Shown here: in pieces, positions 3,312 to 64,000 of the stretch
Position numbering within the stretch: position 1 is the first letter of the stretch
Layout: every line of letters begins with the position of its first letter
Origin: Marivirga arenosa
GTDB lineage: Bacteria > Bacteroidota > Bacteroidia > Cytophagales > Cyclobacteriaceae
NCBI RefSeq assembly: GCF_030503895.2
Contig: NZ_CP129970.2
Span: 1,366,001-1,430,000, forward strand
Reading direction: 5' to 3'
Length of the DNA stretch: 64,000 nt
Position numbers and translations under genes: made by a program
The notes under the pieces: generated by a model
Told to the model about the DNA's origin: nothing
Databases searched by the model: none
What the model saw: only the letters and a program-made list of their open reading frames with translations

Positions 3312-3977
3312 TTATTTGTTAATTCTTTCAAACATTGTAAATAATTTTGACCTGTTTTTACGCAATTCTCCTATGGTACTTTCATAACTTTTTAATGAAA
3401 AGATATTTGGGATACTCAGTTTTCCCATTGCAATTGTATAGCTTATGGTGATGGGCACGTAATTCAAAAGCATTATAATTTTTTGAGCATTTTTAGTTTT
3501 TACCTTTTTAAATCCTAACCTTTCGGCAGTGTGAGGATTAATAAAATAAGCATTTGCTTCAATTTTAACATCATCCTGATCTTTACTAAATGAATCCAGC
3601 ATATTAATCATACCTTCAATGTAACTATAAAGGATCGCCTTCTTATTTCTTGATTCACTTTTGTGAATACTTAAGGTATAATAATAATCGAAAAGCGTAC
3701 CGCCATGAAGCTGAATTTTATTATGCTTAAGGGCTGATGATAGCAACAAAGGGGAATAGTAAACTAAGTTACCGTTTTTTCGAGCAGTAGGCACATCAAT
3801 AAAGGAAGCAAATACTGATAATACAGGCTGAATAAGGATTAATAAAAACCAAACGCCGGTGCTCCATGCCATAAATACTATTATTGCTACCAGTATAAGT
3901 AAATTAAAAACAAAAGACCATAACTTTCTTTTTTGATCTCTCCTGGGCAGTATATAATAGCGATGAACAACTTTCAT
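3312..3977 (-). CDS. Conserved membrane protein, unknown function
   Basis: This 221-residue protein has a basic N-terminus followed by two closely spaced hydrophobic segments (residues about 21-40 and 42-62), which predicts a hairpin anchor with most of the protein cytoplasmic. The remainder is rich in Lys, Tyr and Ile and shows no motif I recognise. It is followed after 2 bases by the Gre-like gene, which implies co-transcription and perhaps a shared role, but no function can be assigned. Confidence 0.7.
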   Translation of the reverse strand: MKVVHRYYILPRRDQKRKLWSFVFNLLILVAIIVFMAWSTGVWFLLILIQPVLSVFASFIDVPTARKNGNLVYYSPLLLSSALKHNKIQLHGGTLFDYYYTLSIHKSESRNKKAILYSYIEGMINMLDSFSKDQDDVKIEANAYFINPHTAERLGFKKVKTKNAQKIIMLLNYVPITISYTIAMGKLSIPNIFSLKSYESTIGELRKNRSKLFTMFERINK

Positions 3978-59460: not shown

Positions 59461-59684
59461 TTTTTGTTTTAGTGGATAGATATGTGAAACGGTAGAAGGT
59501 AAGGACTATTGCATAGCTCTTATTACTTTAATTCTTAATCAATTTTTTCAGTTCTAAATTCAGTATTAACGATCTCTCCCCAAATTGCAAGAAGAAGCAT
59601 TATCTGCCTTAGCTACTCATATAAAAGACTATTCCAGCGGATATTTCGAATGAGATAAACCTCTTCATATAGGGTATTCCTGAA

Positions 59685-60091
59685 GCAGGAGGCCTATATT
59701 TTTACGCAGGAAAGGCAAAATTTAGCGCAGGAAGGGTCATAAGTCTTGCAGGAAGAGGTATAATTTACGCAGGACGGCTAAAAAATGGCGCAGGAAAGGG
59801 TATAAGTACCGCAGGAAGCCTCAATAGTCTCGCAGGAGAGGGTCATATTCACGCAGGAAGGGGCGAAAGTGGCGCAGGAGTGCGGTTTAGTCATTTTAGA
59901 TAGCAGGTAAATGATCTTTTCTTGCGGGTGAACGATTTTTTCTTGCGGGTAAGCCATTTTTTAATGCGGTTATATCATTTTATAGCGCGGATAAATGATT
60001 TTATTGAGCGGTTGCGTCATTTTGGAAAGCGGTTGGGTAATTTTCGGAAGCGATTGGGTGATTTTGCTTGGCTTTCTTGAAAGCTCAACAA
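59685..60091. repeat. Strict 21-bp-period repeat array, two sub-blocks
   Basis: Sub-block A has GCAGGA starting at 59685, 59706, 59727, 59748, 59769, 59790, 59811, 59832, 59853 and 59874, exactly 21 bases apart with no mismatch in the hexamer. After an 8-base phase shift, sub-block B has GCGGtT-type hexamers (GCGGTT, GCAGGT, GCGGGT, GCGGAT, GCGATT) at 59882, 59903, 59924, 59945, 59966, 59987, 60008, 60029 and 60050, each with ATTTT near unit positions 12-16. The other positions differ strongly between units. One plus-strand frame is open for 76 codons over block A (59673-59900) but has no start codon. Confidence 0.9.
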
Positions 60092-60294: not shown

Positions 60295-61450
60295 TTAATC
60301 CGAATTGGCTATAGCTACGGTTGGTGGAAGTAATAATTCTTTTCTTAATTCTGTATTAAGATTTTCCTTTGTCAACCCAACATCATTTAATAAATCCCAC
60401 ATCTCGCCTTTTTCTAATAATGTTAATAACTTTTCTTTTCCATACAAACGAAACGTCCTTTCACATATCAATGCACCTATCATATACGGAATTGAAGTTT
60501 CTCCGGCAAAGAATCTTTCAAAAGGTTCTAAGTGCAAGCTTAAGTCAATTTCAGGGTTTTTTGTAAGGTATGTTTTTAAGTTTTTTTTTATGCCACGTAT
60601 AGCTGTACTTTCGACTGCCACCAAAATATGTAGCCATCCCTTCATTGAACAGTTGAGCTCTAGAATAATAAAAAGCAATAATATAAAGATGCATGATTTC
60701 ATGAGTATAGAACTCCGAACTATTTGCTGAAAAAACTATATTCTGGCGAGCAGATAGACCTCCACCACCTTCTCTATACATAATTGGATTATAGTCGAAG
60801 CCTTTGATTTGAAATAGTTCTTTAAGGTTTGTACAAGAATAGTAGGTAATCGGTAAGGGCTCGGTGTTAAAAAAGTCACTTATTTTTTCGATATCTTTTA
60901 TTTGCTTTTCAGCTTCTTGTTCATTGAACTCCTTATTCGGAGAGATAACATAACTTAGACTCCCTTTCTCAATTTTCTTCCAGTCCTTTGTAAAATATTG
61001 AGTTGAATTAGAAAGAACAACGCCTGAGTCCGATTTCGTTGCTAAAATATTGTAAATATACTTTAATGTATTTTCTTCTGTAACAGTATTATGACCTATA
61101 TATGCCACTTTAATAAGTTTCTTGTTCTCCTTATCCGTGTCCACGATGTGTAACAAAGTAGGCTGATAAAAATTTGAAATACTATCTTTATCTTCAATTC
61201 TGTAAATGTCCTGATATGGAAACCAATAGGTATCAAAGTCATCTGATGACCAATATGTATTTTCATAGTTGGATTTATTTTTTGTTGACAAGAATCCGCG
61301 GAGGGTTTTAATAATTTCCTGATTTATCTGAGCTTCTTGATCTACAGTGGGTGAGATAGTCAAATTAAAAGTTGATGAACATTCTTTTTTTTCTGCCGAA
61401 TTACAGCAACATCATATTAAAAGTAAAATTAGACAGGAAAATCTAGTCAT
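60295..61450 (-). pseudogene. Broken lipoprotein zinc metallopeptidase (gluzincin)
   Basis: The reading frame is continuous from an ATG at 61450 except for TGA at 61412-61414 (codon 13), in the hydrophobic core of a lipoprotein signal (MTRFSCLILLLI, stop, CCCNSAEKKE), and a -1 frameshift at a run of nine A (60581-60589, minus strand). Removing one A joins the upstream part (61363-60551 in one frame) to the downstream part (to 60295 in another), restoring about 384 residues. The zinc motif HEIMH (60689-60703) and the third ligand in LFNEGMATYFGG identify a gluzincin/peptidase MA-like enzyme. An internal TTG at 61363 could start translation but would lack the export signal. Confidence 0.75.
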
Positions 61451-61540: not shown

Positions 61541-61738
61541 TTAAAGTAGCTCAATAGTGCATTCACTATAAATTTTGTTAGATTTTCTTGCTTTTCGTTC
61601 TGGGTTTGTTCCTTTCATATTCCACAGCGCACCGGACAGCCATACTCTTTGATAAGTTTTGGGTTTGAGTGTTAGTTTTGCGGGACTTAGCAATGTGTAT
61701 TGTTGAAAGAGTTGGTTAAGTCTGAGTTGCATATACAA
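61541..61738 (-). CDS. Possible short ORF, unknown
   Basis: A 65-codon frame starts inside the last codons of the EcoRII-like gene (23-base overlap). It is basic and includes TYQRVWLSGALWNMKGTNP, with no signal peptide or known domain. It may be a real small gene, part of a dispersed repeat or chance. Downstream, 61451-61540 shows nothing else. Confidence 0.25.
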   Translation of the reverse strand: MYMQLRLNQLFQQYTLLSPAKLTLKPKTYQRVWLSGALWNMKGTNPERKARKSNKIYSECTIELL

Positions 61739-62885
61739 CCTCTATAAATCCTTCAAGTGTTAGTATATTCGCACGATGTTCAGTAGGAAAGCTGCTTAAA
61801 TATGCTCGCGGAACGACTAATTGCACGCCATAGTTATTCATCTCTTCAAGTTGATTTTTCGAAATCCCTTGCTGCAAAGTAAATAGATGCTTTGTTTTGA
61901 TACGGTCTGCTTCATTAAGAATCTGTCTCCACCTGTCTTTACAGGTTGTTTTTGAAGCAAGAAGAACAAGCTTATTTTCGTCAAATTTTGGGTCATTATA
62001 TGACTCTATATTCGGGAACATAAAGTCCGGCTTCTTATTGTTTTCTGTAGTTACCTGAGTTTGAAAAATCAATTCCGAAATTCGAAAGATCTCTTCTAAA
62101 TGATGCTCTAGCGACTTTCCTGCACGACTCTTCCTTCTGTTTAGGATAGTGTTAGCAGATTTAACTAGTTCTTCCACAGACTGAAAAGGAGTACGGATTA
62201 GTTCTGAGTACCGATCATTTTCGATTGTTTTGAAAAGGGAATATTCTGCTTCCAGCCAATTTAGTAATTCCTTATCAGGATTTGATTTGATCTGATTAGA
62301 AGTAATGTTATATGAGCTAATAAAACAAGTTCTCGCATTATTTGCTAGATCAATTGTTGGTGGAAAATCAACTTGTAAAGATTTTACATAAGCTAAGAAA
62401 CATTGTAGTAACCTATCTTCGGAAGTTTGTTCGACTTGCTTTGGTATTATTCCATTCGTCTCGGTTGATGAAATATTGAGTGCAGCAAAAAAGTCTTCTA
62501 TATCTTCATCACTACTTAAAACATATCCCTCAAAGAAATCTGCTGATTTTTTGACAAGTACGAGAAGATCACCAACATTATCGTCAGTCAAGTAAGGAAA
62601 TCCACGGCCAAACCTCGTTAACCTGTACTCATTTCTTGTTCCTACACCATAATAAATGAAACGACTGGAGGTTTCGAAGTCATCTTGCCAACGAATAGTA
62701 ACATAATGATCCTTGTTAGACCCTTTTTCTCCCGGTGAATTAAAGAATAGCGGCCAAGAGTTCTTATGCATATGGAAGCCCGCTTGATGTCCGCCAGTTG
62801 CACCTGTGTCGTTAGGTTTTATAAATTTACTGAATGATACTTCAGACTGCTGCGCTGATTGTATTGCCTTTTCTAATATGCTCAT
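61716..62885 (-). CDS. EcoRII-like type IIE restriction endonuclease
   Basis: The 389-residue protein matches the EcoRII two-domain plan. The N-terminal effector-binding domain (about 1-150) has [20 protein letters not shown] and [13 protein letters not shown]; the C-terminal PD-(D/E)xK nuclease has KPDFMFPN near residue 280 and [19 protein letters not shown] near 308, holding the catalytic lysines, then [15 protein letters not shown]. EcoRII-family enzymes cut around CC(A/T)GG or related CCNGG sites, and EcoRII needs two sites; specificity here is inferred. Its start lies inside the methyltransferase gene (44-base overlap), so the pair is co-translated. Confidence 0.92.
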
Positions 62886-64000
62886 CTAATCTGGCTAGTT
62901 CATTAACAATTTTTTCTCCAACGGCCTGCATTAAAGGTCTTACCACTGAGTTACCAAATTGCTTATAAGCCTGAGTATCTGAAACTGGGATTTCAAAATT
63001 ATCAGGAAAACCCTGCAATCTGGCACATTCTCTAGGAGTTAGTCTTCTTGGATTTTTTCCTTCTTGAGGGATCAAAATTTCCGATCCATCTTTGTAATAG
63101 CGTGCGCTTAAAGTCCTTGATATTCCATCCATATCAACAAGTCCAAAACCAAAGCCATTGCCTTTAGCTTTATGTTTAGCTGAATAAGCTTGTAGATAAT
63201 TCCACAGTTTGTCTGATAAAGTATATTTAGGATCTGGGTTTGGGTCTAAAATGTCTTCTATAGCATGTGTTTGATCTGGCATTTCAGGAAAATCAAACTG
63301 TTCATTTGCATTGTACCGATCCATATCAAAACCGACAATTACAATTCTCTCACGATGTTGTGGCACAAAATGTTTCCCGTCTAAAACTTGGAAGTGAATA
63401 TTATATCGCAATTTTTTCAAAGTTTTTTGGATCACTTTAAAGGTGTTGCCCTTATCATGTGATACGAGGTTTTTTACATTTTCAAGCAGGAAAGATTTCG
63501 GTCGTTTTTCCTTCAGTATTCTTTTAATATCAAAGAATAGAGTTCCCTGAGTTTCATCTTTAAACCCATGCGCTTTACCTAAGCTATTTTTCTTCGACAC
63601 CCCTGCTATTGAAAATGGCTGACATGGAAAACCCGCAATTAAAATGTCATGCTCAGGAATTTCTTTCTCACCTATTTTAGTAATATCTCCAAAAGGAACT
63701 TCTCCGAAGTTGCAGTGATATGTCTTTTGAGCATATTGATTCCATTCAGAGGTAAAAACGCATTTTCCCCCCAAATTGTGAAATGCCATTCTGAAACCAC
63801 CAATGCCCGCAAAAAGGTCAATGAATTTGAATGTTCCATTCTCATGTGGGGGGAATGGAATATCCCACTCAAAAGGAAGATATCCTTGAAAATAAGGTTC
63901 ATTTACTATTGAAGGATCTAGAGACTGCCCATACTCTATGGCAGATTTTCGAAAATAATGGGAAACTCCGTTTTGGTAACTCTGAAAGTAGTGGGTAAGA
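62842..64000 (-). CDS. C5-cytosine DNA methyltransferase (Dcm-like), start beyond window
   Basis: The reading frame runs from the stop at 62842 to the right edge without a convincing start. An ATG at 63789 (MAFHNLGG) exists but would delete motif I, which is encoded just upstream as [12 protein letters not shown], and before it about 60 more residues (including [16 protein letters not shown]) that fit a Dcm/EcoRII-type N-terminal extension. Further motifs: PCQPFS with catalytic Cys, [31 protein letters not shown] and QFGNSVVRP. It methylates cytosine in the site protected from the neighbouring EcoRII-like enzyme. Confidence 0.92.

Follow-up and report, generated by a model that had tools for sequence, protein, structure and literature searches.

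The array of 21-bp units at positions 59685–60070 of the window, i.e., the whole stretch of 64,000 nucleotides of the Marivirga arenosa genome analysed here, is, to judge from its sequence, most likely the relic of an element formed by a gene and an array and resembling the copy at a related locus (L080). The computation showed three properties of this element: the array is linked to the gene of one protein family, its core is particular to each copy, and its step is kept at 20–22 bp. These data point to a protein-and-array system, so far undescribed, that occurs in many bacteria and whose motif differs between copies; an enigmatic repeat in a single genome can prove to be its fossil. No description of this gene-plus-array system was found in the full text of openly licensed papers.

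Direct reading of the window confirmed the repeat as it had been reported in the preliminary description. Array 1 (59685–59881, + strand) consists of ten 21-bp units with the core GCAGGA, the ten exact hexamers following one another at a 21-base step (59685, 59706 and so on up to 59874) and the last unit being cut short by array 2. The latter (59882–60070, + strand) begins after a shift of 8 bases and includes nine 21-bp GCGG-type units at the same step, with the different core GCGG[GTA]T: GCGGTT (59882), GCAGGT (59903), GCGGGT (59924 and 59945), GCGGTT (59966), GCGGAT (59987), GCGGTT (60008 and 60029), and GCGATT (60050). The pattern scan gave eight matches across array 2, most units of which contain CAT or GAT at an offset close to that of TCAT in array 1. 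The periods returned by TRF were 21, 42, and 84, and no similarity to the array DNA was found in plasmids at E ≤ 1. As for the rest of the unit, described as freely varying, the bases outside the core do vary, but their composition is biased by position: among 195 units, taken from related arrays and identified by six CAGG- and CGGG-type 5-mers, positions 8–10 are 63–75% G+C and positions 13–16 are 77–89% A+T.

Alignment to L080 revealed, just ahead of array 1, the 3' end, reduced to roughly its final 12 codons (59623–59660, + strand), of a gene of the family encoding a helical protein of about 232 aa. It is followed by a terminator-like hairpin, TCCTG-AAG-CAGGA, and then a T run (59665–59705, + strand), the 3' arm of the hairpin being the first array unit. 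Region 59623–59684 is identical to the L080 gene end and hairpin arm at 48 of 62 aligned bases, with an alignment score of 48 versus a maximum of 27 in 2000 shuffles, and also lies within a longer blastn match; the window and L080 share 82% over 175 bp of array. Hairpins of this kind were also observed after the intact gene in L009, L080, and L084, and ahead of the array in L082. The window locus was assigned to the element according to this order, i.e., the last codons and the TCCTG/CAGGA hairpin preceding the GCAGGA array; the rest of the gene is absent from the locus. An intact homologue does not explain the entire region as a pseudogene, since the homologous gene stops at the beginning of the array.

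The gene to the right of the array (60295–61363, − strand), for which no Pfam family was found at E ≤ 1, is broken into overlapping frames in the window; a locus of the same species (L078, 2907–4061) harbors a single 384-aa frame, 96% identical over 270 aa to the split gene. Positions 61716–63999 (− strand) code for an EcoRII-type restriction enzyme (EcoRII-N plus EcoRII-C) beside a C5 cytosine methylase, that is, a type II restriction-modification pair.

Related arrays were searched for with the pattern (CAGGA N16)x4, with at most one mismatch, alongside a control pattern. CAGGA at 21-base spacing occurs in the host genome (G000; 3.94 Mb, one contig), with seven forward and four reverse matches versus none for the control, and in seven of the ten genomes of the genus, the control giving 0 in all ten. 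Within the family, 46 of 390 genomes match the pattern; many of these matches appeared by eye to be coding or other repeats, and clear relatives were found in five genera. The second array of the host genome (approximately C1:3800540–3800810, core TCAGGA/GCAGGA) has an intact gene beside it, while three genomes (G056, G211, and G223) harbor two-sided arrays, in which a palindromic centre separates the complementary core, on the left, from the core, on the right.

The host genome contains a third copy of the gene, in broken form (about C1:251970–252666, within L237, G000:C1:248500–253500), followed by an array with a TCAGG core. A dispersed repeat of about 100–240 bp flanks the gene–array segment in some copies, its sites being L079 3646–3800 and 7212–7368, L080 2166–2320, and G000:C1:248993, 258146, 1275856, and 2236941; near the intact element of L009, a tandem array of about five 119-bp units spans positions 1324–1957. 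The segment common to L079 and L080 extends from position 3694 to 4980 of L079. In the empty-site comparison, the unique flanks of L080 were not found in G000, so mobility of the element is only a possibility.

The flanks of the 22 arrays listed revealed one protein family beside many of them. Its gene lies 2–59 bp ahead of the array in L009, L079, L080, L084, and L097, and at a distance of 366 bp in L089 and 602 bp in L094; L081 has the gene as a broken frame, and a piece of it is kept in L082. The partner protein (about 232 aa) is all-helical and has neither a Pfam domain nor a recognised DNA-binding domain. Its AlphaFold model, also all-helical (mean pLDDT 91.2, pTM 0.68), gave no match to the PDB with Foldseek at E ≤ 0.001. 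The top VIA match was the S23-family protein BT_0352 (PDB 2rld; Z 8.6, rmsd 2.9 over 92 residues), which differs in having 116 residues, half the length of the partner protein; Nop5 coiled coils were matched at Z 7.0–7.2. Both matches lie in the range common among unrelated helical bundles, a Z of 7 being ordinary for these according to the tool's own note.

The distribution of the gene is patchy and often multi-copy: it was found in 24 of 245 genomes of the family, or in 27 of 390 when a profile was used, and a phylum-wide draw of 395 genomes retrieved the protein solely from the window's own. The scan of species genomes yielded 102 relatives, 80 of which were kept; 77 of them form the rows of the protein alignment (A2), from which L182 and L186 (both with an internal stop) and L152 were omitted. 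Relatives occur in Marivirga, Reichenbachiella, Marinoscillum, Fulvivirga, Aquimarina, Galbibacter, Prolixibacter, Labilibaculum, and others, and also in bins labelled Aminicenantes, Acidobacteriota, Neomarinimicrobiota, and Deltaproteobacteria. The closest relative of the host's intact gene in the named collection belongs to Marivirga aurantiaca (74%). Probing plasmids and phages with the L128 protein did not retrieve any relative at E ≤ 0.001, and none of the 87 stretches of viral contigs matching a pattern encodes one. Three PADLOC defence models were matched, each by one member, with E values of 0.002–0.009. ORFs resembling, by eye, REP-associated (Y1) transposases were observed within 3 kb in four of the 80 loci (L129, L133, L142, and L198), the one in L129 lying 228 bp past the gene.

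The linkage between gene and array was evaluated by defining an array as at least four exact 5-mers in steps of 20–22 bp, with one missing unit allowed, within 450 bp. Seventy-six of the 80 relatives were considered downstream (L131, L162, L180, and L205, with less than 300 bp, were omitted) and 73 upstream, three more having too little sequence on that side. An array was found downstream of the gene in 56 of 76 loci, leaving 20 copies without one by this rule, versus upstream in 2 of 73; dinucleotide shuffles gave none in 2280. The steps within the rule were 21 bp in 181 cases, 20 bp in 68, and 22 bp in 21. The histogram of distances from 8 to 70 between 6-mer repeats places 66 of 76 loci at distance 21, with peaks at 20–22, 40–43, and 61–64 and at most 13 loci elsewhere. 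The complete element can be depicted as a gene for the protein of about 232 aa followed, within a few hundred bases, by about 4–16 units of 20–22 bp, whose core of 5–8 bp is particular to each copy. Many copies also have a hairpin made of the core sequence, in some cases terminator-like, which lies ahead of the array or at its centre. According to these data, the suggestion of an unknown class of repeat element, put forward from the window alone, gains support, as the gene-plus-array arrangement recurs with the step kept.

The cores include GCAGGA, TCAGGA, ACAGGA, CCCGGGA, GCCGGGA, CCATGG, TGGGGA, TGGAA, GATAAC, CTATCC, AACTCGG, CATTCCGG, GCTATACC, CGTGGAAA, and others. Some of them recur across copies, and some genomes carry one core in two copies. 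In 32 of 75 arrays, two cores lie close together in inverted orientation, partly because some cores are themselves palindromic.

The constraint acting on the array was estimated from the divergence from another strain of the same species. In the intact copy, the gene has a dN/dS of 0.06 over codons 1–220, and changes affect 8 of 286 positions of the array, 47 of 295 upstream, 18 of 75 four-fold sites, and 7 of 61 positions past the array (array versus upstream, p = 2e-8; versus four-fold sites, p = 3e-8). Hence the rate of change in the array, including its variable parts, is 4 to 9 times lower than at neighbouring neutral-like sites, and the spacers are conserved to roughly the same degree as the core (7 of 232 and 1 of 60 positions changed, respectively). 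Since changes are so few relative to upstream and four-fold sites, the whole intact array, spacers included, is either constrained or recently converted. In the window copy, the arrays (9 of 298) changed like their flanks (5 of 162 and 7 of 184; p = 0.83), a comparison that tests the loss of constraint weakly, because divergence there is low. Thus, strong conservation of the array characterizes the intact copy and not the window copy. The comparison of unit number between strains at the window revealed differences of whole units, array 1 differing by 84 bp and array 2 by 21 bp.

The interpretation that we tentatively prefer, giving it a little less than an even chance, is that the array seen in the window is what is left, after decay, of an element whose protein binds the duplex DNA of its own array. 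The preference for duplex DNA is based on the two-turn spacing, the inverted two-sided arrays, the palindromic cores (such as CCATGG), and the lack of a consistent RNA fold. The residues following a conserved GYxSxY motif in the protein may help to read the core, and, at a spacing of two helical turns, the cores would all face the same side of the DNA, allowing many copies of the protein to assemble side by side. The assembled complex might act locally, either as an insulator or roadblock after the gene or as a partition-like platform; at the window, the protein gene would have been lost and the array would be drifting. The helically phased protein-binding array, one of the explanations originally proposed for the repeat, is supported by an element that couples gene and array at a kept 20–22-bp step. 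The conservation of the spacers in the intact copy exceeds what core-only binding would need, and recent conversion could also explain it.

The main alternative, which we consider unlikely but worth weighing, is that the array is transcribed and the protein binds the core as RNA, in the manner of the box motifs of TIGR arrays, the variable parts acting as guides or scaffold. In the excerpted text of PMC12045711, TIGR arrays likewise have a single adjoining gene upstream or downstream, with repeats that are fixed per locus and differ between loci, and short variable spacers; they most often consist of 5–15 units, in which two distinct alternating repeats of 8–12 nt and 9-nt spacers are processed into 36-nt RNAs. 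The conservation of spacers between strains at the intact copy would fit such a function, as would the likeness of every second unit (p < 0.05 in 14 of 52 arrays, 2–3 being expected) and an excess of folding: 19 of 63 arrays fall below a z of −2 in the sense orientation and 11 of 63 in the antisense one (median z −1.26), the window array reaching −3.08 on the + strand and −2.38 on the − strand. The Nop5 coiled coils among the fold matches point in the same direction, but a Z of about 7 is ordinary for helical bundles, and no Nop domain was detected by Pfam in G000 (PF01798 gave no match) or among the 25 of 41 matched families listed for the 77 members. Moreover, base composition in the variable parts depends on position, the step stays at 20–22 bp throughout, and arrays inverted around a palindromic centre, a feature that also separates them from TIGR arrays as described in that excerpt, would yield antisense cores within one transcript. 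Compared with the same description, the present arrays have one core per 20–22 bp instead of two alternating repeats with 9-nt spacers, and they also differ from TIGR-Tas in giving no match in the phage and viral collections searched.

It is improbable that the array is a neutral minisatellite, generated by slippage at a terminator hairpin whose tandem copies then diverged, with the gene as a mere bystander. The units do resemble the 3' arm of the hairpin, whole units (84 and 21 bp) were gained or lost between the two strains, and the window array changes like its flanks; nevertheless, the arrangement recurs with different cores in 56 of 76 copies, and the intact copy shows strong conservation of its array. 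This explanation is already strained for the intact element, and may describe the present state of the window copy.

CsrB carries many CAGGA sites, and the window has CAGGA about ten times in about 200 bp, which brings to mind a sponge for a sequence-specific RNA-binding protein. This is very improbable, given that other copies use CCATGG, TGGAA, GATAAC, or AACTCGG and that no Rfam family matched the window at gathering scores; the diversity of the cores excludes a CsrB-like sponge for the family. Lastly, the earlier idea of a decayed heptapeptide-repeat gene, which takes 21 bases as seven codons and finds the AGxxxxx frame open by eye through array 1, deserves practically no credence, as a different gene (that of the helical protein) ends just before the array, units of a relative such as GCAGGAAAGGGTTGAAGTGAT stop the AGxxxxx frame, and the mixture of 20-, 21-, and 22-bp steps in related arrays breaks it. 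In arrays with a TCAGGA core, one minus frame has, by eye, a TGA in every unit.

Returning to the binding of the array as duplex DNA, the residues after GYxSxY differ strongly among copies, and sequence comparison gave moderate support, short of proof, to the notion that core and protein tail vary together. Pairs of copies with bodies less than 55% identical were compared, drawn from the 75 of 102 distinct copies with an array of at least four (eight of the 75 being without a recognisable tail). The core 5-mer was shared by 43 of 141 same-tail pairs versus 145 of 1823 different-tail pairs, and none of 5000 permutations of the tails reached 43 (mean 15.6, maximum 31); when CGGGA–CGGGA pairs were left out, the values were 19 of 117 versus 99 of 1716. 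The pairings observed were YH with CGGGA (7/8), YN with CGGGA (5/8), YF with GCAGG (6/10), HW with CCATG (3/3), and YL with TCAGG (4/9). Relatedness explains part of this signal. In a test on 65 copies, two more doubtful tails having been dropped, one copy per body cluster at 60% identity (28 clusters) gave a sharing of 0.23 versus 0.07 with a median permutation fraction of 0.03, and the signal was absent with the stricter clusters at 55% (12 clusters) and 50% (five clusters). Of 57 loci, 3 had the core inside the codons of the tail, 3.67 being expected, and arrays with the same core did not have more similar spacers (0.493 versus 0.504; 25 arrays with distant bodies).

In one bin, two contigs share 99.7% identity along 3678 bp of upstream DNA and gene, after which tail, core, and flank all differ (MYHSK with CCCGGGA versus AYFRNR with GCAGGA); a mixture of strains in this bin is possible. 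Tail and core likewise differ between two paralogues of G001 that are 93% identical. The proteins of L129 and L130, representing the YH/CCCGGGA and YF/GCAGGA types, are alike almost throughout except in the tail. The tail rule was noted after L128–L207 and the first loci had been seen, and is not blind to them; it also agrees with the already seen L105, L117, L122, and L124 and, by eye, with L120, whose array score is only 3. Among copies unseen when it was noted, one of six with a known tail fits (L221, YLN with TCAGGA, like L098–L100), the others being L226 (YFR with CCCAGA), L223 (YFK with AACAGGA), L227 (YWA with GCAGGAAT), and L228 and L229 (YRS with GTTGTGAA); further exceptions are L118 (YFARK with TGTTTAGCA) and L175 (YHKK with CTACAGGG). 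The tail code is therefore a lead of moderate strength, as relatedness contributes to the signal, the cluster tests weaken it, and the rule mostly failed on unseen copies. Somewhat doubtfully, we envisage a widespread and unnamed recognition class, in Bacteroidota and perhaps other phyla, in which the short C-terminal tail of the helical protein would determine which core it recognises in its array, tail and core being swapped as a pair. With a transcribed array, this class would amount to a novel RNA-guided system comparable to TIGR-Tas; with an array read as DNA, to an array-binding nucleoprotein with a tail-to-motif code. In any case, a gene family of unassigned function is coupled to an array that keeps its 20–22-bp step but has different core motifs in different copies, and this offers a testable protein–DNA (or protein–RNA) pairing with dozens of natural variants and a possible specificity code in the tail.

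The element may represent a new kind of protein–array system beside CRISPR and TIGR. It differs from CRISPR in that a core of 5–8 bp lies within a 20–22-bp unit, instead of repeats of 25–36 nt with spacers of similar size, and in that no neighbour gene, as would be expected of cas genes, is common to more than six of the 80 loci, the size of the largest neighbour cluster. The iterons of plasmid origins are direct repeats of about 20–22 bp beside the gene of their binding protein; here, the contigs are chromosomal, the units strongly divergent, the helical protein is without a Pfam match, and no plasmid match was found. BrickBuilt, a minisatellite-MITE of Porphyromonas gingivalis made up, in the excerpted text of PMC4596501, of a 23-nt tandem array with a leader, a tail, and small inverted-repeat ends, is similarly a short-period intergenic array present in many copies per genome in a Bacteroidetes species; as described there, it has a single repeat unit, whereas here a protein gene accompanies the array and the cores differ between copies.

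The nearest described proteins are those of the PQLLE family (NF052641), which appear as distant relatives by profile: 33 of 77 members matched at E ≤ 0.001, the best E value being 8e-08, and L128 scored 22 bits. Four members of the element family, scanned singly, reached 21, 18, 37, and 27 bits, versus a cut-off of 80. The proteins matching the PQLLE profile differ from those of the element in having the array of 20–22-bp step on the opposite side of the gene, i.e., upstream in 13 of 19 loci and downstream in 0 of 19, with none in 380 single-base shuffles (20 loci, one without a testable upstream and one without a testable downstream region). Homology of these matches, which are from seven genomes, is less certain, because only 3 of the 22 matches listed pass the profile cut-off. 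Larger proteins (264–405 aa) matching the same profile were observed in L254–L259 and L262–L267; several of them seem, by eye, to end in a fibronectin-III-like domain, and several of the latter have arrays of 20–22-bp step upstream.
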